From Aerococcus tenax (lineage in GTDB: Bacteria; Bacillota; Bacilli; Lactobacillales; Aerococcaceae), in assembly GCF_003286645.3 (NCBI RefSeq), contig NZ_CP127382.2:1488001-1552000 (forward strand): 64,000 nucleotides of DNA. The letters run 5' to 3'. The notes beneath the pieces were generated by a model. It searched no databases and had not been told where the DNA came from. It worked only from the letters and a program-made list of their open reading frames with translations. Shown in pieces: positions 545 through 24,911 of this stretch. Position 1 is the first letter of the stretch, and the number at the start of each line of letters is the position of its first letter. A program made the position numbers and the translations under genes.

Positions 545-2038
545 ATGACACAAGATCCCAAATGGACCCGGCAATTGCGTTACCAAGCCTATGAAGACTG
601 GCCAAGTGACTATCTGGGTCAGCTTAAAGAAAAAGTTGCCCACAGCCCCTGGCGCCAACACTACCACGTCCAACCAGAAAGTGGCCTACTCAATGATCCC
701 AATGGTTTTTCCTATTACAATGGTCGCTGGCAGCTTTTCTACCAATACTATCCAATGGGACCCGTCCATGGGCTCAAGTCCTGGTACCATCTCTCCTCCA
801 AAGATCTAGTCCATTGGAAAGATCACGGGATTGCCCTAGCACCCGATTCTCCCTACGATAGTCACGGAGTCTATTCAGGATCTGCCCTCCCCGTGGATGA
901 CCAGCTCTTTCTCTTCTACACAGGGAATGCTCGCGATAGGGACTGGCAACGCCATCCTTACCAGGTCGGCGCCTGGATGGATAAGGACTATCAATTCACT
1001 AAAATCGATCCACCCCTCATTAGAGCAGTTGAAGAGGGCTATACTGATCATTTTCGTGACCCGCAGATCTTCCCCTACCAAGACGGCTATCTGATGATAC
1101 TGGGCGCCCAAACCGAAGCGCTTAAAGGCCAAATCCTAGTCTACCAAGGCGACAATCTTAAGGACTGGAACTTTTTCGGTCCCCTAAAATTAACTAGCGG
1201 AGAAAGTGCCTATATGATGGAATGTCCCAATTATGTGAAAGTGGATGGGAAAGACCTGCTGATCTTTTGCCCGCAAGGCTTGGACCAGGATGAACTCAAC
1301 TATCAAAACATCTATCCCAATACTTATTTAGTCTCCGAGGCCATTGATTGGGAGAACTTGGCACTGAATGAGCCTAGTTCTATAAAGAATCTTGACGATG
1401 GCTTCGATGTTTATGCCACTCAGGCCTTTAACGCGCCTGACGGTCGGGCTTTAGCCGTGTCTTGGTTAGGTTTACCAGACCTGACTTACCCCGACGCGGA
1501 CTGGGGCTGGACCTCGGTCATGAGTTTGGTCAAGGAACTCCATTTTGACCAGGGTCATCTCCACCAACGACCAGTCAAAGAAATGGAGAGCCTGCGCCAA
1601 AGCCCTATCGCCATCAAGGAGACACTAGAATCAGGTCAAGCGTGGACCTATGATCCCGAAGACAATGCCTACGAAATAAATTGTTCATTGGCCGCTGACT
1701 CCAAGCTTGACTTTTTAATCATGAGTGATGAGAAAGAAGCTGCCGCCCTTCACATTGACGTGGACGTTCCAGCGGGCAGACTCACGGTGACACGGACCAA
1801 CCAGGGCGAACTCGTCAATCCTGAATACGGCCAAGTCCGGGAAAGTCACTTTAAGGGCGGAGAAGACCTCCAGCTACAAATCTTTATCGATGCCTCTTCC
1901 TTTGAAATTTTTGTCCAAGACGGCTGTAAAGTCCTTAGCGGCAGAATTTTCCCCAAAAAAGGACAAAGTCAGCTTATAATAAAGGGAAGTGGTCGTTTAG
2001 GGGGCAGGATCTATCCCCTAGAAAATATTAACAAGTAA
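545..2038 (+). CDS. scrB: Sucrose-6-phosphate hydrolase (GH32)
   Basis: A cytoplasmic glycoside hydrolase family 32 enzyme that splits sucrose 6-phosphate into glucose 6-phosphate and fructose. With the start used here (497 aa), the three family signatures are NDPNG near residue 50 (nucleophile Asp), RDP near 171 (transition-state Asp) and ECP near 226 (acid/base Glu). A C-terminal beta-sandwich region follows, and the length is typical. An upstream in-frame ATG at 521 has no ribosome binding site, whereas AAAGGAAG sits 8 bp before the ATG at 545, so 545 is preferred. It is transcribed with scrR, whose ribosome binding site overlaps the scrB stop codon. Confidence 0.93.
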   Translation: MTQDPKWTRQLRYQAYEDWPSDYLGQLKEKVAHSPWRQHYHVQPESGLLNDPNGFSYYNGRWQLFYQYYPMGPVHGLKSWYHLSSKDLVHWKDHGIALAPDSPYDSHGVYSGSALPVDDQLFLFYTGNARDRDWQRHPYQVGAWMDKDYQFTKIDPPLIRAVEEGYTDHFRDPQIFPYQDGYLMILGAQTEALKGQILVYQGDNLKDWNFFGPLKLTSGESAYMMECPNYVKVDGKDLLIFCPQGLDQDELNYQNIYPNTYLVSEAIDWENLALNEPSSIKNLDDGFDVYATQAFNAPDGRALAVSWLGLPDLTYPDADWGWTSVMSLVKELHFDQGHLHQRPVKEMESLRQSPIAIKETLESGQAWTYDPEDNAYEINCSLAADSKLDFLIMSDEKEAAALHIDVDVPAGRLTVTRTNQGELVNPEYGQVRESHFKGGEDLQLQIFIDASSFEIFVQDGCKVLSGRIFPKKGQSQLIIKGSGRLGGRIYPLENINK

Positions 2039-2051
2039 AGGAGTGCTGGTC

Positions 2052-3032
2052 ATGGCGATTACCTTAGCCGATGTGGCTAAAAAAGCCGGGGTGTCAGCAA
2101 CAACTGTTTCCCGGGTGATTAATAATTATGGCTATCTCAGTGAGAAGACCATTAAAAAAGTCCGCCAAGCCATGGAGGAATTAAAGTATCAACCCAATGC
2201 CTTAGCGCGGTCATTACAAGGTAAAGGGACGCAATTAATTGGTCTGATCTTTCCTAGTGTGGCCCATCCCTTCTACGGAGAATTAGTGGAGGCCTTGGAA
2301 AGCTGTTTTTTTGAAGAGGGGTATTACACCATCCTCTGTAATTCAGCTAATAATAAAGAAAAAGAGCGCCATTATTTGCGCATGTTGGCTGCTAACCAGG
2401 TGGACGGTATTGTGGCTGGAGCTCATAATATGGGAATAGAAGAATATCATCACTATCAAAAACAAGTCGTCTCCTTTGACCGCTATCTTTCCGAAGAAAT
2501 TCCCATTGTTGGTAGCGATAACTTCCAAGGGGGACAAATGGCGACAGAAATGCTGGCCCTCCGCGGAGCTAAAAGGATCGGAATCTTTACCGGTAGTCAA
2601 AAATCTGCCTCGCCGACCAACCAGCGTTTGGAAGGTTATCTCTCCGTCATCGAAGCCCAAAAGCTGAATCCCTATGTTTACCAGCTCCAAGAACAGCGGT
2701 CGCCTAGAATAGCCGCCCAACACATTCAGAGTATCCTGAAAAAGGACCAGTTGGACGGCATTTTCTGTACCGATGACCTGACTGCCCTACTGACCCTCGA
2801 TGCGGCCAAAGACTTAGGACTCCAGGTCCCCCACGACTTAAAAATTATTGGCTATGATGGCAGCCGTTTTATCCAAAACTACCATCCCGAACTTTCTACC
2901 ATTGTTCAACCCATCCAAGATTACGCCAATCTGATCGCTGATTTGTTAATTAAGAAAATTAAACAACCAGATAGCGACCTTAACCGCAATTACCAGCTAC
3001 CTGTGTCCTTCCTACAAGGCAAAACGTGCTAG
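2052..3032 (+). CDS. scrR: LacI-family sucrose operon regulator
   Basis: A 326-residue LacI/GalR-type repressor. The N-terminal helix-turn-helix reads ITLADVAKKAGVSATTVSRV, followed by a hinge and a periplasmic-binding-protein-like effector domain (GIFTGSQ, DGIFCTDD and IIGYDG segments). It lies directly downstream of scrB, only 13 bp from its stop. An in-frame GTG at 2043 is possible, but AAAGGAG at 2036-2042 is correctly spaced for the ATG at 2052. The likely role is sucrose- or fructose-responsive repression of the divergent scrA and scrBR units through the paired CGTTTGACA sites. Assignment to sucrose rests on position. Confidence 0.88.
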   Translation: MAITLADVAKKAGVSATTVSRVINNYGYLSEKTIKKVRQAMEELKYQPNALARSLQGKGTQLIGLIFPSVAHPFYGELVEALESCFFEEGYYTILCNSANNKEKERHYLRMLAANQVDGIVAGAHNMGIEEYHHYQKQVVSFDRYLSEEIPIVGSDNFQGGQMATEMLALRGAKRIGIFTGSQKSASPTNQRLEGYLSVIEAQKLNPYVYQLQEQRSPRIAAQHIQSILKKDQLDGIFCTDDLTALLTLDAAKDLGLQVPHDLKIIGYDGSRFIQNYHPELSTIVQPIQDYANLIADLLIKKIKQPDSDLNRNYQLPVSFLQGKTC

Positions 3033-3038
3033 CAAATA

Positions 3039-3078
3039 AAAAATGAGCTTTACCCCGATCTCGGGAAAGCTCATTTTT
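3039..3078. terminator. Bidirectional terminator between scrR and DUF4931 gene
   Basis: A 12- to 13-bp stem (AAAAATGAGCTTT pairing with AAAGCTCATTTTT) closes a short GC loop and has A- and T-runs on its two sides, so it can stop the convergent transcripts of scrR and the downstream minus-strand gene. Confidence 0.85.
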
Positions 3079-3085
3079 AGTTTAT

Positions 3086-3853
3086 CTAAAAAGGAAGGTA
3101 GTCTTGGAGTTCAGCAACTACCTTTTCCAGGTGTCCCTGGTAGGAAACCTGGCCAATCTTAAAGCCGATAAAATAAGGGCTAGCGATAAAGCGTGGGAAA
3201 ACCTTACAATAAAAACGTCCCCCCATGGGATAGAAAAAGAGGTTATAAGACCCGTTACGTGAACTGAAGTCATCCGTCAAAATATAGGTCACAATGCTTT
3301 GGACCGCATCCGCAAAGTCATCCAGCTGATCGAGATCAGCAATCGCGACATTAAATTCAGTCATTCCCATAATTGGTTGGGTGGACAAGGTAACGGTAAC
3401 ATCCCCCTTCTTGCCGACTTCTAACCCCTTAAAGGCATCCAGGCTAATTTCTTCATAGCCATCCTTATCCTTCAGTCCCACAATCTGTGAGTGAGGATGG
3501 CGCAAAGACCCGCCGGAAAGTGGACCATAATTTTTAAATAAGAGGACACTCTCAAATTGATCGTCTCCTAACATGTCTAGCCAACAATCAAAGGTGAAAC
3601 GAAAAATTTGGCGATTTTCTTCCTTACTATAGGTAGGGGTATCGGCCCAATGGTCTTGGGACTCAATCACCAGGGTTTGCACCGTATCATCCAGAGTGCG
3701 GTATTTATTCATAAGCCAAATCTTATCATCTTCTTCACGGAAGATATTGGTTAGCGCCTCGCGATCGCAGAAGGGACAATAAGCCCCCTCATTGCGATAA
3801 TTTTCCGGCTTTTGCGCCGCAATTTCCTTATGAAAAATCAATGGCTTTCCCAT
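3086..3853 (-). CDS. DUF4931 protein, GalT/HIT-like
   Basis: About 255 residues. It has CPFC near residue 26, a zinc-ribbon-like pair, and HPHSQIVG in the middle, which resembles the His-x-His active site of galactose-1-phosphate uridylyltransferase and the HIT superfamily. This suggests a nucleotidyl transferase or hydrolase fold, and it matches the description of DUF4931 proteins in Lactobacillales. The substrate is unknown. An earlier in-frame ATG (3889) has no ribosome binding site; AAAGGAGG lies 11 bp before the ATG at 3853, so that start is preferred. It is a single gene, convergent with scrR. Confidence 0.7.
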   Translation of the reverse strand: MGKPLIFHKEIAAQKPENYRNEGAYCPFCDREALTNIFREEDDKIWLMNKYRTLDDTVQTLVIESQDHWADTPTYSKEENRQIFRFTFDCWLDMLGDDQFESVLLFKNYGPLSGGSLRHPHSQIVGLKDKDGYEEISLDAFKGLEVGKKGDVTVTLSTQPIMGMTEFNVAIADLDQLDDFADAVQSIVTYILTDDFSSRNGSYNLFFYPMGGRFYCKVFPRFIASPYFIGFKIGQVSYQGHLEKVVAELQDYLPF

Positions 3854-4741: not shown

Positions 4742-7700
4742 TTAGTCTTCCTTATTGTTTTTGACTAATAAGGCACCACTACTTAGTAGTAATGAAGCAA
4801 TAATCACTGTCATCGCTGATGTCACTTCTGCACCTGTGGCTGGTAAGCTCACTTGTTTGTTTTGACCATCTTGTTCTTTATTTGTAGCCGATTCATTGTC
4901 CTTGGCCTTGAATGAATTGTCTGGATCAGCTTGTCCAGGAACTTGAGGAGCTGGATCGCTTGGTTGGTTTGGAACTTCTGGTCTTGGTTCAGCAGGTTCA
5001 TTCGGTACTTCCGGTGTTGGGTTATCTGGTACGCTTGGTACTCCTGGTGCTGGCTCACCTGGCACGTTCGGTACTTCTGGCGTTGGGTCACCTGGTACGT
5101 TCGGTACTTCCGGTGTTGGCTCACCCGGTACATTTGGTACTTCTGGTGTTGGGTCGCCTGGTACGTTTGGTACTTCTGGTGTTGGCTCACCTGGCACGTT
5201 CGGTACTTCTGGCGTTGGATTACCTGGTTGACCTGGTACTTCTGGCGTTGGGTTACCTGGTACCTTAGGCTCACCTGGTTTTGGAGTTTCTGGTTTGTTC
5301 GGAACTTTTGGTGTTGGATCGCCAGGTTTTGGTGTTCTTGGAGACTCTGGGCATGGTTTGCAGCATGGGATTTCGATCTCTTCCGTGGTGTGGTCTGAGA
5401 AGATGATGATCAGTTTACCTTGGCGGTTATAGATCTTCTGTACGCTGCGGCCATCCTTACCGTCCTTGCCGTCTTTACCATCGCGGACAAAGTGACGACT
5501 GGATTCATTGCCTTGGCCATCTTTAACGATTACCCAAAGGCCGGATTCACCTTTTTCATTCTTACCTGGAATGGTTTCGAGGCTTGATGACGCGCCGTCT
5601 TTACCGTCACGGACGAATTCACGGGAAACTTCATTGCCGTCGCCGTCGAAGACAATAATCCATTGGCCAGATTCACCGCGGCTGTTCTTGCCTTCTTCCA
5701 CCTTAACAGATGGGGTCTTGCCGTCGCGGATAAATTCACGGCTTAATTCATTGCCCTTGTCGTCGGTAATGATGACCCAAACGCCTTCGTTGCCTTGGCT
5801 ATCCTTACCTTTTTCGGTGCGGATGCGTTGAGACTGGCCATCCTTACCGTCCTTACCATCGCGTCCATCCTTACCGTCTTTGACAGTCGTGGTTGTGGTC
5901 GTGCCATCTGGATTCTTGATGGTGATGGTATGGCTGCCGTCACCGTTGTCTTTGACGCTAACTTCTGGGGACTTACCGTCCTTACCGTCTCTAACTGTGG
6001 TGTTGGTGGTCGTACCGTCTGGGTTCTTGATGGTAATGGTGTGGCTGCCGTCGTTATTGTTTCGGATAGAAACTTGAGGTGACTTGCCGTCCTTACCATC
6101 TTTACCATCGCGGCCATCCTTAACGGAACCTTCCGCTACAGCTGGTTGAGTCGTGTCTGGCTGGCCCGTCTTAGGATCTACTGGGTAGAACTTAATCGTG
6201 GTGGTGCCGTCTTGACCTTTCTCAACCACTGGGGCAAAAGTCTTACCGTCGATACCGTCGCGACCATCCTTACCGTCTTTGACAGTTGTCGTTGTGGTCG
6301 TGCCATCTGGGTTCTTAATAGTGATGGTGTGAGTCCCGTCGCCGTTATCCGTAGTGGTCACTTCTGGGGACTTGCCGTCCTGACCATTCTTCACGGTAGT
6401 GGTTGAAGTCGTGCCATCTGGATTCTTCACGGTAATGGTATGGGTCCCGTCGCCATTGTCCTTCAAGGAAACTTCTGGAGACTTGCCATCTTTACCATCT
6501 TTGACGGAGCCTTCTGCAACAGCTGGTTGCGTGGTATCTGGCTGGCCCGTCTTAGGATCTACTGGGTAGAACTTAATGGTGGTTGTACCGTCTTGCCCCT
6601 TCTCAAGGACTGGGGCAAAAGTCTTACCGTCGATACCATCCTTACCGTCGCGGCCGTCTTTACCATTTTGACCAGCCTTACCGTCTTTGACCGTGGTGGT
6701 AGTTGTTGTGCCATCTGGGTTCTTGATGGTAATGGTGTGGGTCCCGTTGCCGTTGTCCTTGGTGGTGACTTCTGGGGACTTGCCGTCCTTACCGTCACGG
6801 ACAAATTTAGCGGAAACGACTTCATCATCGGTAAACTTACCGTCACCGTTCTTGTCGTAGTAGTTGATGATCCATTGACCTTGTTCACCAGCTTCGTTAG
6901 GTCCAGTGACTACCGTCGTGTAGGCAGATTTACCGTCTTGACCAGCTGCACCCTGAGCGCCGTCTTTGACTTCGCCAGTAGCAACAGGTTCTTGGCTCTT
7001 ATCAACCTTACCCGTCTTAGGATCAACTGGGTAGAACTTGATGGTGGTTGTGCCATCTGCACCCTTCTCAACGACTGGAGCAAAGGTCTTGCCGTCGACA
7101 CCATTTGTGCCGTCTTGACCCTTGTCACCTTTCTCACCCTTGGCCCCGTCTTTGACGGTAGTTGTGGTGGTCGTGCCATCTGGGTTCTTGATGGTGATGG
7201 TGTGGGTCCCGTTGCCGTTGTCCTTAGTCGTGACTTCTGGCGACTTGCCGTCTTGGCCGTCCTTCACAAAAGTTTCACTAATGACCTTGTCGTTTTCTGG
7301 ATCTTTAACGGTGATCTTAGTACCTGCCTGGTTTCCAGGGGTATTTGGATCGAGGTCTTCCACCCGTTCCGTTTCAACGACTGGAGCCTTAGCGTCCTTA
7401 CCGTCTTTCACAGAGCCTTCTGCGACAGCTGGTTGACTTTCATCAGCCTTGCCGGTCTTAGGATCAACTGGGTAGAACTTGATGGTGGTTGTGCCGTCTT
7501 CACCCTTAGTCACAACAGGTGCATAGGTCTTGCCATCCTTACCGTCAGGGATAAATTGGGCAGATACCACTTCATCGTCGGTGAACTTGCCATCCGCGTT
7601 CTTGTCATAGTAGTTGATGATCCAACGGCCAGGCTCGCCGGCTGCGTTTGGTCCTTCAACAACTGTGGTGTAGGCAGACTTACCGTCTTTGACAGTACCT

Positions 7701-10700
7701 TCAGCCACAGGAGCTTGGGTTGTGTCAGCTTTACCGGTCTTAGGATCTACTGGGTAGAATTTAATGGTGGTCGTGCCATCTTGGCCCTTCTCAACGACTG
7801 GCGCAAAGCTCTTGCCGTCGATACCGTTCTTACCGTCTTTACCATCCTTACCGTTGACGCCATCTTTGACGAAAGTTTCGCTGATGACCTTACCGGTTTC
7901 TGGATCTTTGACCGTAATCTTGGTACCTGGTTGATTATCTGGAGTATTTGGATCGGCATCTTCAACCCGAGTGCTTTCAACGACTGGGGACTTGCCATCC
8001 TTACCGTTCTTAACAGTGGTGGTAGAGTTTACTGTGCCGTCTGGGTTCTTAGTGGTGATGGTGTGGGTACCGTCACCGTTATCTTTCACTTCAACCGTTG
8101 GGGATTGACCATCCTTACCATCGCGAACGAATTGGGCAGAAACGACTTCATCGTCGGTGAACTTGCCGTCGCCATTCTTATCGAAGTAGTTGATGATCCA
8201 GCGGCCTGGTTCATTGGCTGCATTTGGTCCTTCAACGACTGTGGTGTAAGCGGACTTACCGTTTGCACCGTCCTTGACTGCACCTTCTGCAACTGCTGGT
8301 TTGGTCGTATCGGCTTCACCGGTCTTAGGATCAACTGGATAGAACTTAATCGTGGTTGTGCCGTCTGCACCCTTCTCTACGACTGGAGCAAAGGTCTTGC
8401 CATCAGTGCCATCTTTTACCGTACCTTCAGCGACAGCTGGTTGTTCGGTGTCAGCCTTGCCGGTTTCTGGATTCACTGGGTAGAACTTGATAGAAGTTGT
8501 GCCGTCTTGGCCCTTAGTTACTACAGGAGCGAAGGTCTTGCCGTTCTTACCATCCTTAACTTCTGTTTCACTTGGGGTCCCGTCAACGACATTACCTTCT
8601 GCATCGCGAACTTGTGGGGTTACCTTGATGATCACACCATCGTTAGCGTCATTGCGGCGGGTTTCAACCTTAGGACTGAGACCGTCTTTACCGTCCTTGC
8701 CGTCCTTCACCTTGCCTTCTGCTACAGGGGCTTGGGTCATGTCTGGCTGTTTGGTTTCTGGGTTAACTGGGTAGAACTTGATGGTGGTTTCGCCGTCTTT
8801 GCCTTTTTCGAGGACAGGGGCGAAGGTCTTACCATCTTGGCCATCCTTGACGGTTCCTTCTGCTACGGCTGGTTGAGTTTGATCTGCTTTACCAGTTTCA
8901 GGGTTGACTGGGTAGAACTTAATAGAGGTTGTACCGTCTGCACCCTTCTCAACAACAGGAGCAAAGGTCTTACCGTCCTTGCCGTCTTTCCCATCTTTAC
9001 CGTTGCGGACAAATTGGGTTGAAACAATTTCGTCGTCGGTGAACTTGCCGTCGCCGTTCTTGTCGAAGTAGTTGATAATCCATTGACCTGGTTCACCGGC
9101 TGCATTTGGTCCTTCAACAACCGTTGTGTAGGCGGACTTGCCGTTAATACCGTCTTTGACTGTACCTTCTGCAACAGCTGGTTTGGTCGTGTCTGGTTGA
9201 CCAGTCTTAGGATCGACTGGATAGAACTTGATGGAAGTTGTGCCATCTTCACCCTTCTTAACGACTGGGGCGTAGCTTTGGCCGTCTTGGCCATTCGCAC
9301 CGTCTTTAACGAAGCTTTCGCTGATGACCTTGTTAGTTTCTGGATCTTTAACCGTAACCTTGGTGCCTGGTTGGTTACCTTCAGTTGTTGGATCGGCGTC
9401 TTCTACGCGGGTCGTTTCAACAACTGGGCTCTTACCGTCTTTGACTTCGCCAGTAGCGACTGGAGCCTTAGTCTTGTCAGGTTCACCTGTCTTAGGATCG
9501 GTTGGGTAGAATTTAATTGTGGTTACGCCATCTTGACCTTTTTCAACTACAGGAGTGAAGGTCTTGCCGTCTGCACCGTCTTTAACTTCACCAGAAGCGA
9601 CTGGATCTTTGGTCTTGTCAGCTTGGCCATCTTTACCAGCTGGGTAGAACTTGATGGTGGTCGTACCATCTTGGCCTTTTTCGACAACAGGAACAAAGGT
9701 CTTGCCATCTTGTCCTGGATCGCCTTTTTCACCCTTGGCACCATCTTGACCCTTTTCGCCGTCTTTAACGAAGCTTTCGCTAATAACATTGCCGGTTTCT
9801 GGGTCTTTGACAACTACCTTGGTACCTGCTTGGTTACCTGGGGTAGTTGGATCGGCGTCTTCTACGCGGGTCGTTTCAACAACTGGACTCTTGCCATCTT
9901 TGACTTCGCCAGTTGCCACTGGGGCTTTGGTCTTGTCAGGCTCACCGGTCTTAGGATCGGTTGGGTAGAACTTGATGGTGGTTACGCCATCTTGACCTTT
10001 TTCAACTACAGGAGTGAAGGTCTTGCCATCTGCGCCGTCTTTGACTTCGCCAGAAGCGACTGGATCTTTGGTCTTGTCAGCTTGGCCATCTTTACCGGTT
10101 GGGTAGAACTTGATCGTTGTCGTACCGTCTTGACCTTTCTCAACAACAGGTGTAAAGGTCTTGCCGTCTTGGCCATCCTTCACAGTGCCTTCAGCGACAG
10201 CTGGTTGACTTTCATCAGCCTTGCCAGTTTCTGGATTCACTGGGTAGAACTTGATCGAGGTGGTGCCATCTGCGCCCTTAGTTACAACAGGAGCAAAGGT
10301 CTTGCCGTTTTCACCGTTCTTACCGTCTTGGCCTTTCTCACCTGGATCACCTTTTTCACCCTTGTCGCCTTTAGCGCCGTCTTTGACTTCGCCGGTTGCG
10401 ACTGGGTCCTTAGTTTGATCAGCTTGGCCAGTCTTAGGATCGACTGGGTAGAACTTGATGGTTGACACGCCATCTTGGCCCTTAGTGATCACAGGAGCGT
10501 AGGTCTTACCGTCCTTAACTTCCGTTTCGGTTGGGGTACCGTCAACCACATTGCCTTGAGCATCACGAACTTGTGGGGTCACCTTGATGATGACACCATC
10601 GTTAGCGTCGTTGCGGCGGGTTTCAACCTTAGGCGTTAGGCCATCTTTACCGTCCTTAACTTCACCTGTCGCAACAGGGTTTTGGGTCTTATCAGCCTCA

Positions 10701-13700
10701 CCGGTCTTAGGATCAACTGGGTAGAATTTAATGCTGGTGACACCGTCTTGGCCTTTTTCAACCACTGGGGCAAAGGTCTTGCCATCGATACCATCTGTAA
10801 CGAAGCTTTCGCTGATAACAGCCCTGGTTTCGGGATCTTTGACCACAATCTTGGTTCCTGGTTGCTTGCCGTCAACACTTGGGTCAGCGTCTTCTACGCG
10901 GCTGGTTTCAACGATTGGAGTCTTCCCATCTTTCACTTCGCCAGTAGCAACTGGATCTTTGGTCTTGTCGGCTTGGCCATCTGCACCTGCTGGATAGAAC
11001 TTGATGTGGGTCACACCATCTGCACCCTTCTCAACGACTGGAACAAAGGTCTTACCGTCTTGGCCTTTCTCACCTTGGGCTCCGGTAGCGCCTGGATCAC
11101 CCTTGTCACCCTTAGCGCCGTCTTTGACTTCTCCGGTAGCTACAGGTTCTTGGCTTTCATCGGCCTTACCGGTCTTAGGATCGACTGGGTAGAACTTGAT
11201 AGAAGTTGTGCCATCTTCACCCTTCTTAACCACTGGCGCATAGGTCTTACCATCTGCACCTTTCTGGCCATCTTTAACTTCAGTTTCAGTTGGCGTGCCA
11301 TCAACGACATTGCCTTGAGCATCGCGAACTTGTGGGGTCACCTTGATGATGACGCCATCGTTGGTAGCGTTGCGGCGGGTTTCAACCTTAGGCGTTAAAC
11401 CATCGATACCGTCCTTAACCTCGCCAGTTGCGACTGGTCCTTGGCTCTTGTCCGGTTGACCTTGGGCATCTGCTGGATAGAACTTGATGTGGGTTGTGCC
11501 ATCTTGGCCTTTTTCTACGACTGGGACATAGGTCTTGCCGTTTTCACCTGGATCGCCCTTGTCACCCTTAGCACCGTCTTGAACTTGGCCAGTGGCAACA
11601 GGATTTTGGCTCTTATCTGCATTACCATTCGCATCTGCAGGGTAGAACTTGATGTGGGTCACACCGTCAGTGCCCTTTTCAACGACTGGGACGAAGGTCT
11701 TGCCGTCTTTACCCTTGTCGCCTTTTTCGCCATCCTTAACAAAGCTTTCGCTTAAGACGGTTTTACCTTCAGGATCCTTAACGGTTACTTTAGTGCCTGG
11801 TTGGTCACCATCTGTATTTGGATCAGCGTCTGCGACACGAGCCGTTTCAACGATTGGACTCTTGCCGTCTTTACCAGGATCACCCTTGGCACCGTCTTTA
11901 ACTTCGCTAGTTACAGGCTCGCCGTTAACCACTTCACCTTGTTCATTGTAAGAACGTGGGGTCAGGGTAATGATCACGCCATCGTTAGCTGGGTTCCGTT
12001 TAACGTCAACTAATGGGGGTAACCCATCGCGGCCATTTTGACCGGGATCACCTTTCTCACCCTTGTCGCCCTTCACGCCATCTTTAACAAAGCTTTCGCT
12101 GAGGACTTCTTTAGTGATTGGGTCTTTGAAGGTAACCTTGGTGCCTGGTTGGTTGCCGTTTTCTTTAGGATCAGCGTCCTCCACACGGGTGGTTTCGATG
12201 AGCGGAGTCTTGCCGTCCTTACCGTCGTTAACCTCACCAGTTGCAACTGGGTTCTTAGTCTTGTCGGCTTCGCCAGTTGGGGTAGCTGGGTAGAACTTGA
12301 TATGGGTAACCCCATCTTCGCCCTTCTCTACCACTGGGACAAAAGTCTTGCCGTTGGCGCCGTCTTGGCCCTTTTCGCCCTGGGCACCTTGAGCACCAGT
12401 GTCACCTTTAAGGCCTTGTTCACCCTTTTCGCCGTCTTTTACGACACCTTCAGCAACAGGTTTTTGAGCCTTGTCAGCTGTGCCGTCTGTCTTAGCTGGG
12501 TAGAATTTAATGGTGGTTTGTTTGTTAGGCTCATCGCGCTCAACGACAGGAACAAAGGACTTGCCGTCAGCTCCCTTTTCACCTTGAGCGCCTTGAGCAC
12601 CGGTCTCACCCTTTTCGCCGTCTTTTACGATGCCTTCAGCGACAGGTTTTTGGCTCTGGTCAGCTTTACCTTCTGCATTAGCTGGGTAGAATTTGATGGT
12701 GGTTTGTTTGTTAGCGTCATCACGTTCAACAACAGGAACGTAGGACTTGCCATCTAGGCCATCCTTACCCTTCTCACCTTGGGCACCAGTAGCACCAGTT
12801 TCACCCTTTTCACCGCGCTCACCTTGTGGACCTTGGATACCTGGATCGCCTTTTTCACCGTCTTTAACTTGACCGGTTGCAATCGGTTGTTGGTCTTTAT
12901 CAGGTGTGCCATCTTTTTTGGCTGGGTAGAACTTGATATGGGTAATACCATCCGCACCCTTTTCAACGACTGGGACATAGGTCTTGCCGTCTGTACCAGG
13001 TGCGCCGTCTTGGACTTCGCTGGTGGTTGGAGTCCCGTTTTCAACTTCACCTTTAGCATTGTAGTGACGAGGAGTTACAGTGATAATCACCCCATCGTTG
13101 GCTTGATTACGTTGAACGTCAACTAATGGTGTTAAGCCATCGCGGCCGTCCTTACCTGGCGTACCTTGAGCACCTTGTTCGCCCTTCTCACCTTGTGGGC
13201 CGCGTTCGCCTTGGTCACCTTTTGGACCTTGGGCGCCGGTTTCACCTCGAAGGCCTTGTTCACCTTGAGGACCGCGTTCGCCTTGGTCACCTTTTGGACC
13301 GGCGACACCTTGAGGACCCTGAGGACCAACTTCGCCGCGTTCACCTTTTTCGCCGTCTTTAACGGTACCTTTAGCGACTGGTTCTTTGCTGGTATCAGCA
13401 GAACCATCTGGCTTGGCTGGGTAGAACTTGATGGTCGTTTCTTTCTTCGCTTCATCACGAGTTACGACTGGAACGAAGGATTTACCATCAGCACCTTTTT
13501 CACCTTGGGCTCCGGTAGCGCCCGTTGCGCCTGTTTCGCCCTTGTCGCCTTTTGGACCTTGGGCGCCGTCTTTACCATCTTTAACGACACCAGTTGCAAT
13601 AGGATTCTTAGTGGTGTCAGCCGTCCCATCAGCTTTGGCTGGGTAGAACTTAATGGTAGTTTCTTTCTTAGCTTCATCGCGGTCAACGACTGGAACGTAA

Positions 13701-16252
13701 GACTTGCCGTCTTCGCCCTTTTCACCCTTGACGCCTTGTGGGCCAGCTACGCCTGGATCACCTTTAGCACCTTGTGGGCCTTGAGGACCAGCGACACCTT
13801 GGTCGCCTTTTTCACCTTTTGGACCTTGAGGACCGGCAACACCTTGTTCACCTTGTGGGCCACGTTCGCCTGGGTCTCCCTTAGAACCTTGAGCTCCGGT
13901 ATCACCTTTAAGGCCTTGTTCACCTTGTGGGCCGCGTTCGCCTTGAGGACCTTGAGGACCACGTTCACCAGTTTCACCTTTAGGACCGGCTACGCCTTGT
14001 GGACCTTGAGCTCCGGTGTCACCCTTAGGACCCTGTGGACCTTGAGCGCCAGTATCACCTTTTTCACCTTGGGGACCACGGGCACCAGTTTCTCCCTTGT
14101 CGCCTTTAGCACCTGGATCACCTTTATCACCCTTTGCACCGGGATCGCCTTTAAGACCTTTTTCGCCTTGTTCGCCCTTGAGGCCATCGTAAACAAAGGT
14201 TTCGTTAAGAGTTCTGCCAGTTGCAGGATCCGTTACGGTTACCTTAGTCCCTGGGCGGCCATCTTTAGTCCCACGTTCAGTTGTAATCTTAGGAGTACGT
14301 CCATCACGGGGAACGATGGTCTTACCTGGGCGGCTGGTGCGATCACCATCTCGAACGACTGCTGAGATTGTGTCTCCTTCGTTTAAGGCAGGCACATTAG
14401 GAATCTCAAAAGTTCCATCTGCTTTAGTACGTGTTTGGTAAGTTTTATCACCTACAGTTACGGTAATATCCTTGTTTGGTTCAGCTGTACCACTAATTGT
14501 AGTATCGCCAGATAAACGAGGATTCACTACTGGGGGTTCGATTGGTTGTTTTTGACCTTCTGGTAGTCCGACCCCAATCAGAATTTCAGCGTCAACAACT
14601 GGTTTTTCAACTTCACGACGAGTACCAATTTCTCCGAGATCGACACCCTTATAGGTACGAACCGTCTTAACAAGCCGGTCAACCCCTTCTTCCCCACGAC
14701 GTACTTCTTTACTTGAACCTACAGGCAGTTCAGTAGTCGTCTTATAGATGGTTTGGAATTTTACAGGTACTTTTTCGACTTTTTCACGCGAACCGAAGTT
14801 AGCATCTGGGTTTAGGTCACCTTGTTGGGTATTGTTTTCGTAGAAATAGTTACGGCGATTTACTGGGTCAGTTGTTCCAGGATTTGAACCCATAGCTTGG
14901 TTGAACATCCCAATTGTCGTCTTATAGTCTAACTTGCCATTCCAATCTTTAACCGGGACTGAGAATTTATAAACTAGAGGATAACCCTGCTGCACATCAT
15001 AGTTACTTAAAGCAAAGTCTGTCCCCATGGATAAACCGGCATAACCAGTAGCAGCTCCACTTGTTAATTGAATAGTTTTAGGTTGACGTCTTCTATTTCC
15101 TTCAATAACCGCTTGAGCTGGAACGCCTGTTGTAGGGTTATAGTTAAAGCCACTTCCTAGCTCGATACCAAAACGTGGTTGGTGATTAACCGATCCTCCT
15201 ATTTGAGCAGTTGACTTAGGATCTAGGCGATATTTTAGCTCAAAGTCAACCTTATTAGCTGCCCGATTAGGAACAGCTTTCAAGGTATAATGAGCATTAT
15301 TTACATTACCTGAACCAAAAACCGTTCCATCTGCTTGATGGGTAATCGGCGTATTCGCATTCCCTAAGGCAACAGGTGCGCCACCGACCCGCACCTCACT
15401 CGGAGTTTCAGGTGCGGCATAGAAGGTAAAGCCTGTGCGGCGTTTGTCGCCTGCGTATTGAACGCCGGCCTTGGAGACTTCTTCCATCAACTGGCGGCCG
15501 TTGCTGACTTTAGATAAATCAACATTCTTAACAATACCGTCGATCTCTTCGTCAGTGTAGATGTCCTTGAGCTCTGTTCTCAGCGCTTCTTGAGGATTAG
15601 CTGCCCCTAAGATTCTCTTAGCTAAACGGTCGAGGCCTGCATCACGGGCTGCTTCTGCAGAAGCACCTGGAACTTCAGAACCTTCAGTTGCCACATAGTT
15701 TCCTGCTTGGCTTTGAGGTGCTTCTTTTTTACCTTTGTCTGACAATTCACCCACTTCTGGAGAACCAGTATCAGCTGCTTTTTCTTCTTTATTTTCTTTA
15801 GCTTGGTCAGCTTCAGCTGGCGCTTGAGCCTTGTTTTCAGCTGCTGGCGCTTCTGTTGCTTCTTCCGCCTTAGTTGGCGCTTCCCCTACAGGTGCTGCTT
15901 CTGCTGCTGGAGCGACTTCAGCCGCTGGAGCTACTTCTGTTTCAGCCTTATCGCTAACAGAATCTGCTGGCGCAGGTGCTTCAACTTTTTCTACATTTTC
16001 ACTCTTTGCGGCATTTTCCAGTATTGCACTCTTATCAGCTGTGAGCGTGTGCGAGGAATTTGTTGGAAGTGAGCTTTCTTCAGCGTGGGTTTCATTAGCA
16101 ACAGCGCGAACTACCGAAGCGTCTCCCATGAAGAGTAAACCCATCGCAACAGCGACTGAGGCTACCCCAATGTTTAAACGTTTAATGCTGTAGCGGTAAT
16201 AGCGATTGCTATTTTTCTCCCGCAACAGTTTAAAATTATTTTTTCCTACCAT
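4742..16252 (-). CDS. Giant LPXTG collagen-like modular surface protein
   Basis: 3836 residues. Order: a YSIRK-type signal (YSIKRLNIGVASVAV, residues 21-35); an Ala/Glu/Pro-rich stretch to about 190; a unique region at 200-490 that may be the binding head; a G5-like segment at about 495-560; an Ig-like domain at 575-650; collagen-like Gly-X-Y triplets at about 690-849; then some 2400 residues of 33-47-residue modules joined by short GXY/DGKDG linkers; a CCxxC motif; a Pro-rich wall-spanning region (TPEVPNVPGEP repeats); LPATG near 3803; a hydrophobic helix; and KNNKED. Sortase should anchor it to the wall as a long adhesin-like stalk. By eye there are about 27 IKFYP modules, 7 RVEDADP, 5 RRNxxNDGVII, 4 WIINYxDKNGDG, 7 HTITxKNPDG and 3 WVI/WIIxxD modules. 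The ligand is unknown. The upstream ribosome binding site (AGAGAAAG) is weak. Confidence 0.95.
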   Translation of the reverse strand: MVGKNNFKLLREKNSNRYYRYSIKRLNIGVASVAVAMGLLFMGDASVVRAVANETHAEESSLPTNSSHTLTADKSAILENAAKSENVEKVEAPAPADSVSDKAETEVAPAAEVAPAAEAAPVGEAPTKAEEATEAPAAENKAQAPAEADQAKENKEEKAADTGSPEVGELSDKGKKEAPQSQAGNYVATEGSEVPGASAEAARDAGLDRLAKRILGAANPQEALRTELKDIYTDEEIDGIVKNVDLSKVSNGRQLMEEVSKAGVQYAGDKRRTGFTFYAAPETPSEVRVGGAPVALGNANTPITHQADGTVFGSGNVNNAHYTLKAVPNRAANKVDFELKYRLDPKSTAQIGGSVNHQPRFGIELGSGFNYNPTTGVPAQAVIEGNRRRQPKTIQLTSGAATGYAGLSMGTDFALSNYDVQQGYPLVYKFSVPVKDWNGKLDYKTTIGMFNQAMGSNPGTTDPVNRRNYFYENNTQQGDLNPDANFGSREKVEKVPVKFQTIYKTTTELPVGSSKEVRRGEEGVDRLVKTVRTYKGVDLGEIGTRREVEKPVVDAEILIGVGLPEGQKQPIEPPVVNPRLSGDTTISGTAEPNKDITVTVGDKTYQTRTKADGTFEIPNVPALNEGDTISAVVRDGDRTSRPGKTIVPRDGRTPKITTERGTKDGRPGTKVTVTDPATGRTLNETFVYDGLKGEQGEKGLKGDPGAKGDKGDPGAKGDKGETGARGPQGEKGDTGAQGPQGPKGDTGAQGPQGVAGPKGETGERGPQGPQGERGPQGEQGLKGDTGAQGSKGDPGERGPQGEQGVAGPQGPKGEKGDQGVAGPQGPQGAKGDPGVAGPQGVKGEKGEDGKSYVPVVDRDEAKKETTIKFYPAKADGTADTTKNPIATGVVKDGKDGAQGPKGDKGETGATGATGAQGEKGADGKSFVPVVTRDEAKKETTIKFYPAKPDGSADTSKEPVAKGTVKDGEKGERGEVGPQGPQGVAGPKGDQGERGPQGEQGLRGETGAQGPKGDQGERGPQGEKGEQGAQGTPGKDGRDGLTPLVDVQRNQANDGVIITVTPRHYNAKGEVENGTPTTSEVQDGAPGTDGKTYVPVVEKGADGITHIKFYPAKKDGTPDKDQQPIATGQVKDGEKGDPGIQGPQGERGEKGETGATGAQGEKGKDGLDGKSYVPVVERDDANKQTTIKFYPANAEGKADQSQKPVAEGIVKDGEKGETGAQGAQGEKGADGKSFVPVVERDEPNKQTTIKFYPAKTDGTADKAQKPVAEGVVKDGEKGEQGLKGDTGAQGAQGEKGQDGANGKTFVPVVEKGEDGVTHIKFYPATPTGEADKTKNPVATGEVNDGKDGKTPLIETTRVEDADPKENGNQPGTKVTFKDPITKEVLSESFVKDGVKGDKGEKGDPGQNGRDGLPPLVDVKRNPANDGVIITLTPRSYNEQGEVVNGEPVTSEVKDGAKGDPGKDGKSPIVETARVADADPNTDGDQPGTKVTVKDPEGKTVLSESFVKDGEKGDKGKDGKTFVPVVEKGTDGVTHIKFYPADANGNADKSQNPVATGQVQDGAKGDKGDPGENGKTYVPVVEKGQDGTTHIKFYPADAQGQPDKSQGPVATGEVKDGIDGLTPKVETRRNATNDGVIIKVTPQVRDAQGNVVDGTPTETEVKDGQKGADGKTYAPVVKKGEDGTTSIKFYPVDPKTGKADESQEPVATGEVKDGAKGDKGDPGATGAQGEKGQDGKTFVPVVEKGADGVTHIKFYPAGADGQADKTKDPVATGEVKDGKTPIVETSRVEDADPSVDGKQPGTKIVVKDPETRAVISESFVTDGIDGKTFAPVVEKGQDGVTSIKFYPVDPKTGEADKTQNPVATGEVKDGKDGLTPKVETRRNDANDGVIIKVTPQVRDAQGNVVDGTPTETEVKDGKTYAPVITKGQDGVSTIKFYPVDPKTGQADQTKDPVATGEVKDGAKGDKGEKGDPGEKGQDGKNGENGKTFAPVVTKGADGTTSIKFYPVNPETGKADESQPAVAEGTVKDGQDGKTFTPVVEKGQDGTTTIKFYPTGKDGQADKTKDPVASGEVKDGADGKTFTPVVEKGQDGVTTIKFYPTDPKTGEPDKTKAPVATGEVKDGKSPVVETTRVEDADPTTPGNQAGTKVVVKDPETGNVISESFVKDGEKGQDGAKGEKGDPGQDGKTFVPVVEKGQDGTTTIKFYPAGKDGQADKTKDPVASGEVKDGADGKTFTPVVEKGQDGVTTIKFYPTDPKTGEPDKTKAPVATGEVKDGKSPVVETTRVEDADPTTEGNQPGTKVTVKDPETNKVISESFVKDGANGQDGQSYAPVVKKGEDGTTSIKFYPVDPKTGQPDTTKPAVAEGTVKDGINGKSAYTTVVEGPNAAGEPGQWIINYFDKNGDGKFTDDEIVSTQFVRNGKDGKDGKDGKTFAPVVEKGADGTTSIKFYPVNPETGKADQTQPAVAEGTVKDGQDGKTFAPVLEKGKDGETTIKFYPVNPETKQPDMTQAPVAEGKVKDGKDGKDGLSPKVETRRNDANDGVIIKVTPQVRDAEGNVVDGTPSETEVKDGKNGKTFAPVVTKGQDGTTSIKFYPVNPETGKADTEQPAVAEGTVKDGTDGKTFAPVVEKGADGTTTIKFYPVDPKTGEADTTKPAVAEGAVKDGANGKSAYTTVVEGPNAANEPGRWIINYFDKNGDGKFTDDEVVSAQFVRDGKDGQSPTVEVKDNGDGTHTITTKNPDGTVNSTTTVKNGKDGKSPVVESTRVEDADPNTPDNQPGTKITVKDPETGKVISETFVKDGVNGKDGKDGKNGIDGKSFAPVVEKGQDGTTTIKFYPVDPKTGKADTTQAPVAEGTVKDGKSAYTTVVEGPNAAGEPGRWIINYYDKNADGKFTDDEVVSAQFIPDGKDGKTYAPVVTKGEDGTTTIKFYPVDPKTGKADESQPAVAEGSVKDGKDAKAPVVETERVEDLDPNTPGNQAGTKITVKDPENDKVISETFVKDGQDGKSPEVTTKDNGNGTHTITIKNPDGTTTTTTVKDGAKGEKGDKGQDGTNGVDGKTFAPVVEKGADGTTTIKFYPVDPKTGKVDKSQEPVATGEVKDGAQGAAGQDGKSAYTTVVTGPNEAGEQGQWIINYYDKNGDGKFTDDEVVSAKFVRDGKDGKSPEVTTKDNGNGTHTITIKNPDGTTTTTTVKDGKAGQNGKDGRDGKDGIDGKTFAPVLEKGQDGTTTIKFYPVDPKTGQPDTTQPAVAEGSVKDGKDGKSPEVSLKDNGDGTHTITVKNPDGTTSTTTVKNGQDGKSPEVTTTDNGDGTHTITIKNPDGTTTTTTVKDGKDGRDGIDGKTFAPVVEKGQDGTTTIKFYPVDPKTGQPDTTQPAVAEGSVKDGRDGKDGKDGKSPQVSIRNNNDGSHTITIKNPDGTTTNTTVRDGKDGKSPEVSVKDNGDGSHTITIKNPDGTTTTTTVKDGKDGRDGKDGKDGQSQRIRTEKGKDSQGNEGVWVIITDDKGNELSREFIRDGKTPSVKVEEGKNSRGESGQWIIVFDGDGNEVSREFVRDGKDGASSSLETIPGKNEKGESGLWVIVKDGQGNESSRHFVRDGKDGKDGKDGRSVQKIYNRQGKLIIIFSDHTTEEIEIPCCKPCPESPRTPKPGDPTPKVPNKPETPKPGEPKVPGNPTPEVPGQPGNPTPEVPNVPGEPTPEVPNVPGDPTPEVPNVPGEPTPEVPNVPGDPTPEVPNVPGEPAPGVPSVPDNPTPEVPNEPAEPRPEVPNQPSDPAPQVPGQADPDNSFKAKDNESATNKEQDGQNKQVSLPATGAEVTSAMTVIIASLLLSSGALLVKNNKED
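9388..10167 (-). repeat. Internal 459-bp tandem duplication in the giant gene
   Basis: The stretch starting at 9391 and the one starting at 9850 are nearly identical over about 320 bp, offset by 459 bp (153 codons). Each copy carries the same series of modules (two IKFYP modules plus a VETTRVEDADP module). This is the most recent-looking expansion in the repeat region and shows that module number can change by in-frame recombination. Confidence 0.75.
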
Positions 16253-19265: not shown

Positions 19266-20573
19266 CTAGTTTAATAATTCATTAATTTCATCTTCTGCTT
19301 TAGGCAGTTCTTCAGAAGCAGACACGCCAGTAAAGATCCGGTCACGGGCATCTCTGAATTTCTCAGAAGCTTGTAAGCCATTGGTCCCTGGGAAGGATGA
19401 GAACGGTACTAAGTCTTCCATTTGACCATATGAGGTTTGATACATTTGATCTTCTTCAATCAATTTCTTCAAGGTTTCATTTTCAGTCGCATCGGTCGTT
19501 GGTGGGAGGTACCCAGTCCCTTCGTCCCAAATAGCGATATTGTCTGGTTCAAAGAGGAATTTAATAAATTTCCAGGAAGCTTCTTGTTCGGCTTCGTCTT
19601 GAGCAGTTACCGCTAAGAAGGAACCCCCAGCAGGAATGGCGCGTTCCTTGTCCCCAAAGCTTGGTAGTGGGATAGCTTTAGCATTAAAGCTGGCATTACG
19701 GGTAATGTTACCACGTTGGGCAATGGTGGAGTTAGTCATAGCCACGTCACCAGTAATGAATGATTGTTGGCCGTCAGCAGTTTGTCCATTAAAGACATAA
19801 CCTTCTTCAATACCTTCTGCCCATAGCCCCATAGCTTCAACAGCTTCATCAGAACCGATGGCTGTCTTACCGTCATCAGTAACCACTTTACCCCCGTTGG
19901 ATTCAATTAATTGTTGGGAAGTCCAGTTGTCGTTGGATTGGTCGATGTTTAAACCATATTTCCCGGTTTTATCTTTAACGGTTTTAGCCGCTTCAAATAA
20001 GTCTTCATAGGTCTTGATTTCATCTGGGTTGACGCCAGCTTCTGCAAGGAGGTCTTCATTGACGAAGATAACCGCAGTAGAAGCGGAGTAAGGGAATCCG
20101 AGAACTTCCCCTTCTAAGTTCTTAGCGAGGTTAGTGAACTCATCATGGAACTTGGTGTCCATATAGTCTTTATCTTCTTCAGCTGCATAGTTATCAATTA
20201 ACTCAGCAGGCTTCATGGATTCAAAGTTCTCATCGAAGTATTCCCGGTAAGCCCAACCAATTTGAACCACAGCAGGGTATTTCTTGGCTGCTGCTTGGGT
20301 TTGGAGGTTCTTCATCAAACCAACGTATAAACCTTCATTATACACAGGGGTCACGTGAACTTCATCTTGGGATTCATTGAATTTATCCACGAGTTCTTTG
20401 ACCTGTTGGCCCCCTTGGGTATCAGCATTACCATGCCAATATTCAATTTCAATCGGGCCGTCGCCCCCACCATTGTTACTTGCGGATTCTGAACCCCCAT
20501 TGCCACAGGCTGCAAGGGAGAGTCCAGCCAAGAGTGCCATGGCTCCCTTGAAGATTCTATTTTTTAATGACAT
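19266..20573 (-). CDS. ABC transporter binding lipoprotein (family 1), copy 1
   Basis: 435 residues. The signal peptide ends in the lipobox LAAC (Cys 23), so it is a lipid-anchored extracellular binding protein. The mature part begins IEIEYWHGNADTQGGQQVKEL, typical of UgpB/MalE-like family 1 solute-binding proteins for sugars, glycerol phosphates or phosphodiesters. It lies after the ATPase gene, apart from the two other binding proteins (23542-26204), with which it shares the same overall pattern but is clearly diverged. It may broaden the substrate range of the same transporter. No substrate can be assigned from sequence alone. Confidence 0.88.
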   Translation of the reverse strand: MSLKNRIFKGAMALLAGLSLAACGNGGSESASNNGGGDGPIEIEYWHGNADTQGGQQVKELVDKFNESQDEVHVTPVYNEGLYVGLMKNLQTQAAAKKYPAVVQIGWAYREYFDENFESMKPAELIDNYAAEEDKDYMDTKFHDEFTNLAKNLEGEVLGFPYSASTAVIFVNEDLLAEAGVNPDEIKTYEDLFEAAKTVKDKTGKYGLNIDQSNDNWTSQQLIESNGGKVVTDDGKTAIGSDEAVEAMGLWAEGIEEGYVFNGQTADGQQSFITGDVAMTNSTIAQRGNITRNASFNAKAIPLPSFGDKERAIPAGGSFLAVTAQDEAEQEASWKFIKFLFEPDNIAIWDEGTGYLPPTTDATENETLKKLIEEDQMYQTSYGQMEDLVPFSSFPGTNGLQASEKFRDARDRIFTGVSASEELPKAEDEINELLN

Positions 20574-23541: not shown

Positions 23542-24834
23542 TTATTTAATCAATTGGTTAATTTCATCCTGGGTCTTTTGTACTTCAGTATCCACGTCAG
23601 CCCCACCTAAGACACGGTCTTTGAGGTCAATGAGCATTTGTTCTGCTTGCATACCGGAGTTACCAGGGAATGGTGCCCATGGAACCAGATTTTCTAAGTT
23701 AGCATAAGCTGCTGGGAAGATTTTATCGTCTTTAATTAAAGTTTGTAATTCTTCGTTATCAGAAGCATCTTTCGTTGGTGGCACATAGCCAGTTCCCTTA
23801 GTCCAGGCAGCAATGTTGTCTGGTTCATATAAGAACTTCATAAATTTCCAAGCAGCTAATTGTTGGTCATCATCTTGGGCAGTCACCACAAGCATAGAAC
23901 CCCCAGCTGGTTTGTTAATTTCTTCGCCTTCAAAGGCTGGTGAAGGAATGGCTACTGCTTCAAAGTTGGCATTATTCATGACATTGGTCCGTTGGGCGAT
24001 GGTTTGGTGCCACATGCCAATGTTTCCTGAGATGAAGGCTTGTTGACCATCTTCTCCTGAAGCGTGAATAGCACTGCCTTCTTCAACCATGTCTTGATAG
24101 AATTGGTAGGTTTCTTTTCCTTTATCGTCAGCAAATGCGGCTTTGCCGTCTTTTAGCATTTGAGAGCCGTTAGATTCCACCATGGATTGGATATTCCAGT
24201 TATCTTCCGCTTCTTGGATATACAGGCCGGTGTGGTCAGTCTTTTCACTGATGGTTTGAGCCGCTTCTCGGATGTCTTCCCAGGTCTTGAGGTCATCTTT
24301 ATTGACCCCAGCTTCATTTAAGATATCCATATTCAAGTAAATTACCGGTACCGATAAGGAATAAGGTAAACCAACTTGGGAATCGTCATTGGCTGTCGCT
24401 AGGCTATAGATATTTTCTTCGAACTTATCGGTGATAAAACTACTGTCTTCAGTGGATAAGTTGTCAATAATTTCTTGGGGTTGGCTATATTCAAAGTTAT
24501 TGGCAAAGTATTCGCGGTAGGACCAGCCAATTTGTACTAAGGCCGGTACTTGACCAGCTGCAGCATTGGTTTGGAGGTTTTGCATTAGACCTTGGTACAT
24601 CCCCGATTGGAAAACACCGGTCACATGGACTTCATCTTGGGACTCGTTAAACTCATTAATCAGTTCAGTAACCGTTTGTCCCCCTTGGGTGTCGGCGTTA
24701 GGGTACCAATATTCAATTTCTACGGGGCCGTCAGAAGCATCACTATCGCCCTCTCCTGAGCTATTACCACATGCGGCGAGTGATAAACCTGTTAATAAGG
24801 TTAAACCACTTAATAACCATTTTCTAAGCTTCAT
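23542..24834 (-). CDS. ABC transporter binding lipoprotein, copy 2
   Basis: 430 residues, lipobox LAAC (Cys 22), family 1 binding-protein pattern (VEIEYWYPNADTQGGQTVTEL). It is nearly the same as the next upstream gene (24912-26204) over the whole length and even shares the sequence around the stop codon (ATCAAGCAT...TTATTTAATC), which marks a tandem duplication. The differences that matter may lie in pocket residues. Confidence 0.9.
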   Translation of the reverse strand: MKLRKWLLSGLTLLTGLSLAACGNSSGEGDSDASDGPVEIEYWYPNADTQGGQTVTELINEFNESQDEVHVTGVFQSGMYQGLMQNLQTNAAAGQVPALVQIGWSYREYFANNFEYSQPQEIIDNLSTEDSSFITDKFEENIYSLATANDDSQVGLPYSLSVPVIYLNMDILNEAGVNKDDLKTWEDIREAAQTISEKTDHTGLYIQEAEDNWNIQSMVESNGSQMLKDGKAAFADDKGKETYQFYQDMVEEGSAIHASGEDGQQAFISGNIGMWHQTIAQRTNVMNNANFEAVAIPSPAFEGEEINKPAGGSMLVVTAQDDDQQLAAWKFMKFLYEPDNIAAWTKGTGYVPPTKDASDNEELQTLIKDDKIFPAAYANLENLVPWAPFPGNSGMQAEQMLIDLKDRVLGGADVDTEVQKTQDEINQLIK

Positions 24835-24911
24835 TTCTCTACTCCTTTTCTTAAATTAAACTGAGAATCTTAAATGAATTGACATACTTAACTTCCAAAT
24901 ATCAAGCATTT

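Follow-up and report, generated by a model that had tools for sequence, protein, structure and literature searches.

A candidate trimeric wall adhesin of Aerococcus tenax with a stalk of collagen-like triplets and predicted beta modules

How could several thousand residues of repetitive wall protein be assembled into one ordered stalk? The question is raised by a gene in a 64,000-nucleotide stretch of the Aerococcus tenax genome (the window; NZ_CP127382.2, positions 1,488,001 to 1,552,000), in which a minus-strand open reading frame spanning 16252 to 4742 specifies a product of 3836 residues. The original prediction, made from the sequence letters, had described this frame and given no strand for it. 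From the N- to the C-terminus, the product comprises a YSIRK signal peptide, a segment of low complexity with much Ala, Glu and Pro (by eye), a helical region, a beta domain, a G5 domain, a Big_6/Bap-like domain, a short RVEDADP-like module, 53 Gly-X-Y triplets, an array of 53 modules, a short terminal element containing CCKPC, proline-rich repeats and an LPATG motif. The modules fall into six types, and a pattern search returns exactly the numbers first counted by eye: 27 I (IKFYP), 7 R (RVEDADP), 5 N (RRN), 4 W (WIINY), 7 H (HTIT) and 3 V (WVI). We propose, with a probability of roughly 0.55, that the protein is a sortase-anchored trimeric adhesin with a PsrP-type tip, a stalk of collagen and beta modules, and a disulfide clamp at the wall end. 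Three identical chains would coil together as a single long stalk made of Gly-X-Y triple helix and, alternating with it, small three-stranded beta modules, one per chain at each level. The modules would re-nucleate and brace the triple helix, the W modules would probably bind calcium, and the wall-end cysteine cluster would join the three chains by disulfides and thereby fix their register. At the N-terminal end there would be a ligand-binding domain of the PsrP type, together with G5 and Bap-like spacers. The triplet phase, the EF-hand-type loops and the wall-end cysteines described below go beyond the original prediction.

The evidence for a triple helix is indirect and lies in the phase of the linkers. 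Counted from the module at residues 652-690 through to the last V module, all 53 linkers have lengths divisible by three; 47 of them are non-empty, they total 642 residues, and Gly occupies every third position with the sole exception of one KDA triplet (Gly to Ala). The linkers contain 214 triplets, and the collagen family PF01391 scores 185.7 bits. KG(D/E) motifs, which stabilise collagen helices, occur 43 times in the linkers, 16 of them in the first. Across the window protein and 14 Aerococcus relatives (P0001-P0013 and P0132), 554 of 559 pattern-recognised linkers are multiples of three; each of the five exceptions (one each in P0004, P0008 and P0012, two in P0132) conceals a module missed by the patterns, and removing that module by hand leaves 12, 108, 21, 132 and 6 residues. 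The linkers of P0012 include KDA plus another linker that lacks Gly (QDV). Distinct non-empty linker strings number 123, and since the strings are related, no probability is attached to the count. Similarly, 23 of 23 linkers of the pneumococcal adhesin PclA are multiples of three when parsed by hand, with some ambiguity over one module start, KDSVSP. One-residue length differences occur within modules (43 or 44 residues in I, 34 or 35 in H), not in linkers. The triplet phase, together with this confinement of length variation to the modules, suggests that the linkers form a triple helix, and it is from this phase that we infer a homotrimer. A comparable arrangement is found in the EPcl proteins of Escherichia coli prophages, which also combine collagen stretches with non-collagen domains, although the domains differ from those here; EPcl proteins are reported to be trimers, and their Col lengths differ typically by multiples of three (PMC3368898). 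A 180-residue module query found no match among 50,697 phage records.

Could the stalk instead be a monomer, in which the modules are single-chain beta units strung like beads and the triplet linkers serve as flexible spacers, as in the repeat stalks of other adhesins? A single-chain model at a predicted local distance difference test (pLDDT) score of 79.7 would suit such a design, as would the many linkers of only 0-3 residues. The strict linker phase in both Aerococcus and PclA and the 53 triplets that run without interruption would not, and we consider a monomeric stalk improbable.

The modules themselves are real units of 34-47 residues (33-47 by the first estimate) with the exit junction V/F/I-x-D/N-G. 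The H modules represent the known collagen-flanked surface repeat, CFSR (PF19079, 421 bits against a cut-off of 27; TIGR04203, 259.9 against 60), whereas no Pfam or NCBIfam match represents a family specific to the I, R, N, W and V modules. The EF-hand family PF00036 scores 37.7 bits for the whole protein (cut-off 25.4), in three stretches, and matches in the I/W area. The helix-loop-helix of an EF-hand was not found around the W-module loop; the model places strands around it and one three-residue helical turn. Two further families over their cut-offs in the I/W area, PF18067 (36.4 against 27 bits) and PF16480 (29.1 against 27.9), were taken for chance resemblance.

Do the modules share one fold, diversified in situ, as had been suggested? 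Fold prediction covered the I, W, H and R types, and in the best of five predicted single-chain models each has three beta strands, which gives a common fold some support. Profile comparison of five of the 15 possible pairs of types, however, links only W with V (96%), the other four pairs reaching 1-19%. The proportion of nonsynonymous differences (pN) is below that of synonymous differences (pS) in 265 of 266 equal-length module pairs of the same type, the medians of pS by type are 0.55-0.64, and no exact 60-mer is repeated anywhere in the gene; degenerate noise is thus not what the modules are, and their sequences point to conserved modules of long standing rather than recent duplicates. 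Several of the types have relatives in further proteins and genera (by eye, Nosocomiicoccus proteins have modules of type I, Hutsoniella proteins those of types W and H), and the synonymous differences between copies are large; the module types therefore look older than this gene, and diversification in situ is not supported. In P0004, residues 3457-3511 form a hybrid module with an HTIT start and an IKFYP end, which points to modules of different types having recombined in frame.

How might three such chains be kept in register? The three cysteines of the protein all lie within five residues, between the stalk and the proline-rich region. CCxxC is present in 11 of 13 relatives (P0001-P0013), and the other two, P0007 and P0008, stop short of that point. 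As a control, each of the 30 YSIRK matches from four genomes (G001, G002, G003 and G014) was followed into its reading frames. Every one of the eight LPXTG-type frames with collagen triplets (L021, L022, L023, L024, L061, L066, L068 and L073) has a close cysteine pair (CC, CCxxC or CGTC) near the wall end, 140-226 residues from the end in six; L021 and L022, which also contain the motif, are C-terminal halves of split frames. The L073 frame lacks YSIRK, and its locus is also split. Such a pair occurs in only two of the 13 LPXTG-type frames without collagen triplets (L055-L059, L063 on the minus strand, L067, L069-L072, L074 and L076), namely CPIC in L055 and CGKC in L070 (Fisher p = 0.0002, a statistic that ignores shared ancestry). 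The comparison left out frames with no recognised LPXTG end (L060, L062, L064, L065, the partly masked L075, L077 at a contig end, L078, a second frame in L024 and the N-terminal parts of split frames) and an antisense frame in L063. We note that the non-collagen wall proteins of L055, L064, L070 and L074 have few cysteines near the wall end, paired in two of them. In a further 105 proteins (P0027-P0131; named members mostly Streptococcus pneumoniae, with 67 distinct C-terminal ends), a close-pair motif occurs somewhere in 103, in P0051 far from the end; 95 have exactly two cysteines, as a close pair, which directly follows the last triplets in 94, not in P0110.

This placement suggests an interchain disulfide knot, an appealing idea in view of the fixed register that very long repetitive chains require. 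Collagen III offers an analogy, without homology: its C-terminal cystine knot consists of adjacent cysteines at one end of the triple helix. More tentatively, Gram-positive wall collagens in general might fix their register as collagen III does, by a wall-end cystine knot (CC, CCxxC, CGC or CGTC), combined with mixed, mostly uncatalogued beta modules that re-nucleate the helix, like modules pairing across chains. A trimeric stalk could also use its cysteines otherwise: to bind metal, to form a bond within one chain or to attach covalently to some other component of the wall. CCxxC, CGTC and CGC do resemble metal or redox motifs, the pairs in two proteins that lack collagen point the same way, and of three genomes searched for DsbA-like proteins two match PF13462 and none PF01323, so that G001 matches neither. 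Against this, the pair stays at the stalk end even where spacing and flanks differ between families, and we hold these other roles to be possible but not favoured.

What does the putative trimeric stalk carry, and how is it attached? Export and anchoring are indicated by PF04650, TIGR01168 and TIGR01167, all over their cut-offs, and by the LPATG motif itself; the PF00746 anchor family scores 15.7 bits, under its own cut-off of 20. At the other end, the structure closest to the predicted tip beta domain is the KRT10-binding region of PsrP (3zgi), and the predicted folds of the next two domains match the G5 structures of SasG/Aap and the C repeats of Bap. The stalk differs from those of PsrP, SasG/Aap and Bap; it shows neither a serine-rich nor an E/G5 repeat array (by eye). 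The helical region upstream has no Pfam match in the searches made, and regions 33-34% identical to it are present in further YSIRK proteins (G003:C1:423957-424247 and 1419334-1419618). The signal, the anchor, the predicted PsrP-type fold and homology to PclA fit the earlier suggestion of a long adhesin reaching through the wall. An alternative, or co-existing, function is that of a biofilm or aggregation scaffold that would attach through its tip to cells of its own kind or to matrix, in the manner of Bap, Aap and SasG. The G5 and Bap-like folds are consistent with it, as is the self-aggregation reported for A. urinae strains (PMC8380466); the resemblance of the tip to the KRT10-binding region and the adherence to host cells reported to be mediated by PclA (PMC9276737) favour a host adhesin, and we rate a pure scaffold as a minority possibility.

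Which known proteins does it resemble? In PclA, a related N-terminal beta domain leads into a G5 region (hhalign probability 97.5%, E 6e-12, 226 columns; 29% identity over 212 residues by BLAST), collagen triplets alternate with short DG-ending modules, CFSR repeats and DxNxDG-like loops are present, and a cysteine pair at the stalk end is followed by LPXTG. However, at 1697 residues and 22 hand-parsed modules PclA is under half as long, it has no match to the I, R, N, W or V patterns, and the alignment leaves the helical region uncovered. An activator, PclR, is reported to be encoded beside pclA (PMC9276737); no PclR-like gene was seen among the neighbours in the window. With its CFSR repeats, the collagen triplets flanking them, the signal and the anchor, the protein belongs with the CFSR/PclA-like collagen wall proteins; its H modules lie far over the CFSR cut-offs, while the other five types set it apart. 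Scl1 and Scl2 of Streptococcus pyogenes share a collagen-like region and an LPXTG anchor, but the NCBIfam SclA and SclB scores remain under their cut-offs (112.8 against 400 and 195 against 325), and in the present protein beta modules alternate with collagen. Searches with the N-terminal domain find Aerococcus proteins at 66-86% identity (named species include A. mictus, A. urinae, A. sanguinicola and A. loyolae), of which P0009-P0011 cover only 44-45% of the query, and proteins of Dolosicoccus, Staphylococcus carnosus and Nosocomiicoccus at 30-38%. Several relatives already bear the NCBI label 'collagen-flanked surface repeat-containing protein', and module numbers vary between relatives. 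The IKFYP profile occurs in 6 of 60 relatives and in 6 of 395 genomes searched across the order, the same six from one family, with named loci in Aerococcus, Dolosicoccus and Atopobacter and, at the protein level, in Nosocomiicoccus. Contig C31 of G002 shares 17859 identical bases with L009, a named Aerococcus locus, which supports the assignment to this genus. The A. tenax record CP127381 also has a relative; this 592-kb record (CP127381.1, L020) is labelled a plasmid and typed non-mobilizable, and the 3515-residue relative lies near phosphonate transport genes. In the Aerococcus literature searched, no mention of this protein was seen.

Is the gene intact? Both YSIRK and LPXTG are present in five of 18 sequences checked (the window protein, P0001-P0016 and P0132, several of them partial records), namely the window protein and P0001-P0004, of 3401-3969 residues; P0005 has the cysteines and a different end without LPXTG. 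Complete relatives, the lack of an exact 60-mer repeat and the same neighbours in G001, the nearest genome compared, show that the gene is not an assembly artefact. What weighs against full confidence in a function is that the frame is split in all three genomes with an orthologous N-terminus: 1153 + 1937 residues in G001 (L021), 2570 + 1622 in G003 (L022), and in G002 (L023) a 151-residue frame with YSIRK followed by one of 3782 residues. L073 in G014, a collagen-like relative, is another split locus. These splits may reflect inactivation, phase variation or sequencing error, which are indistinguishable here. They, and the missing anchor of P0005, are what would be expected of a decaying giant gene, intact in some strains only and doing little, yet intact copies exist, pN lies below pS almost throughout, and error or phase variation could account for the breaks; decay is accordingly the explanation to which we give least weight.

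Table 1. Features of the Aerococcus tenax collagen-like wall protein gene, in N- to C-terminal order (positions in the window).
Feature	Residues	Positions	Strand	Basis
Whole gene, wall-anchored collagen-like protein	3836 in all	4742..16252	-	open reading frame and translation
YSIRK-type signal peptide region, end approximate	1-52	16097..16252	-	PF04650 21.8 bits (cut-off 20); TIGR01168 33.9 (cut-off 20.2)
Helical region	197-273	15434..15664	-	structure model; 29-34% identity matches in G002, G003, G014
Predicted PsrP-type (KRT10-binding region) beta domain	299-481	14810..15358	-	predicted fold
Predicted G5 domain	487-562	14567..14794	-	predicted fold
Predicted Big_6 / Bap C-repeat-like domain	570-649	14306..14545	-	predicted fold
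Shorter RVEDADP-like module at stalk entry	652-690	14183..14299	-	sequence
Longest collagen-like stretch, 53 uninterrupted Gly-X-Y triplets	691-849	13706..14182	-	sequence
Array of 53 modules with in-phase triplet linkers	850-3592	5477..13705	-	pattern search
EF-hand-type loop, W module 1		9029..9064	-	sequence; PF00036; W-module profile matches calcium-binding proteins there
EF-hand-type loop, W module 2		8147..8182	-	best PF00036 stretch, residues 2685-2705; sequence
EF-hand-type loop, W module 3		7571..7606	-	sequence
EF-hand-type loop, W module 4		6821..6856	-	sequence
CCKPC, only three cysteines, wall end of stalk	3630-3634	5351..5365	-	sequence
Proline-rich repeats, presumed wall-spanning, ends approximate		4934..5350	-	sequence, by eye
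LPATG sortase motif		4832..4846	-	TIGR01167 16.4 bits (cut-off 15.9); sequence

The flanking genes resemble those of sugar and nucleoside metabolism, with a LacI-type regulator close by (by eye, without family searches), and the window flanks were not found at the G002 and G003 loci. A stem scan found a single terminator-like stem, which lies within the 3' end of the gene; in the downstream sequence, an inverted repeat followed by six T was also seen by eye, its loop exceeding the length that the scan allows. Several long antisense frames overlap the gene on the plus strand (window 4931-14365, the largest 860 residues at 6440-9022), probably a by-product of the gene's composition. Elsewhere in the window, two adjoining and very similar solute-binding protein genes of 430 residues each lie at 23542-26204, with a third relative at 19266-20573 (all by eye).

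Finally, if our proposal is correct, it would reveal a bacterial way of making triple-helical fibres whose length may exceed 180 nm, a figure that takes the 642 linker residues at the collagen helix rise of about 0.29 nm per residue and leaves the modules uncounted. It would also provide a simple sequence marker by which trimerisation could be recognised in the family to which a pneumococcal adhesin belongs. For Aerococcus, which includes urinary pathogens, it points out a candidate adhesin.
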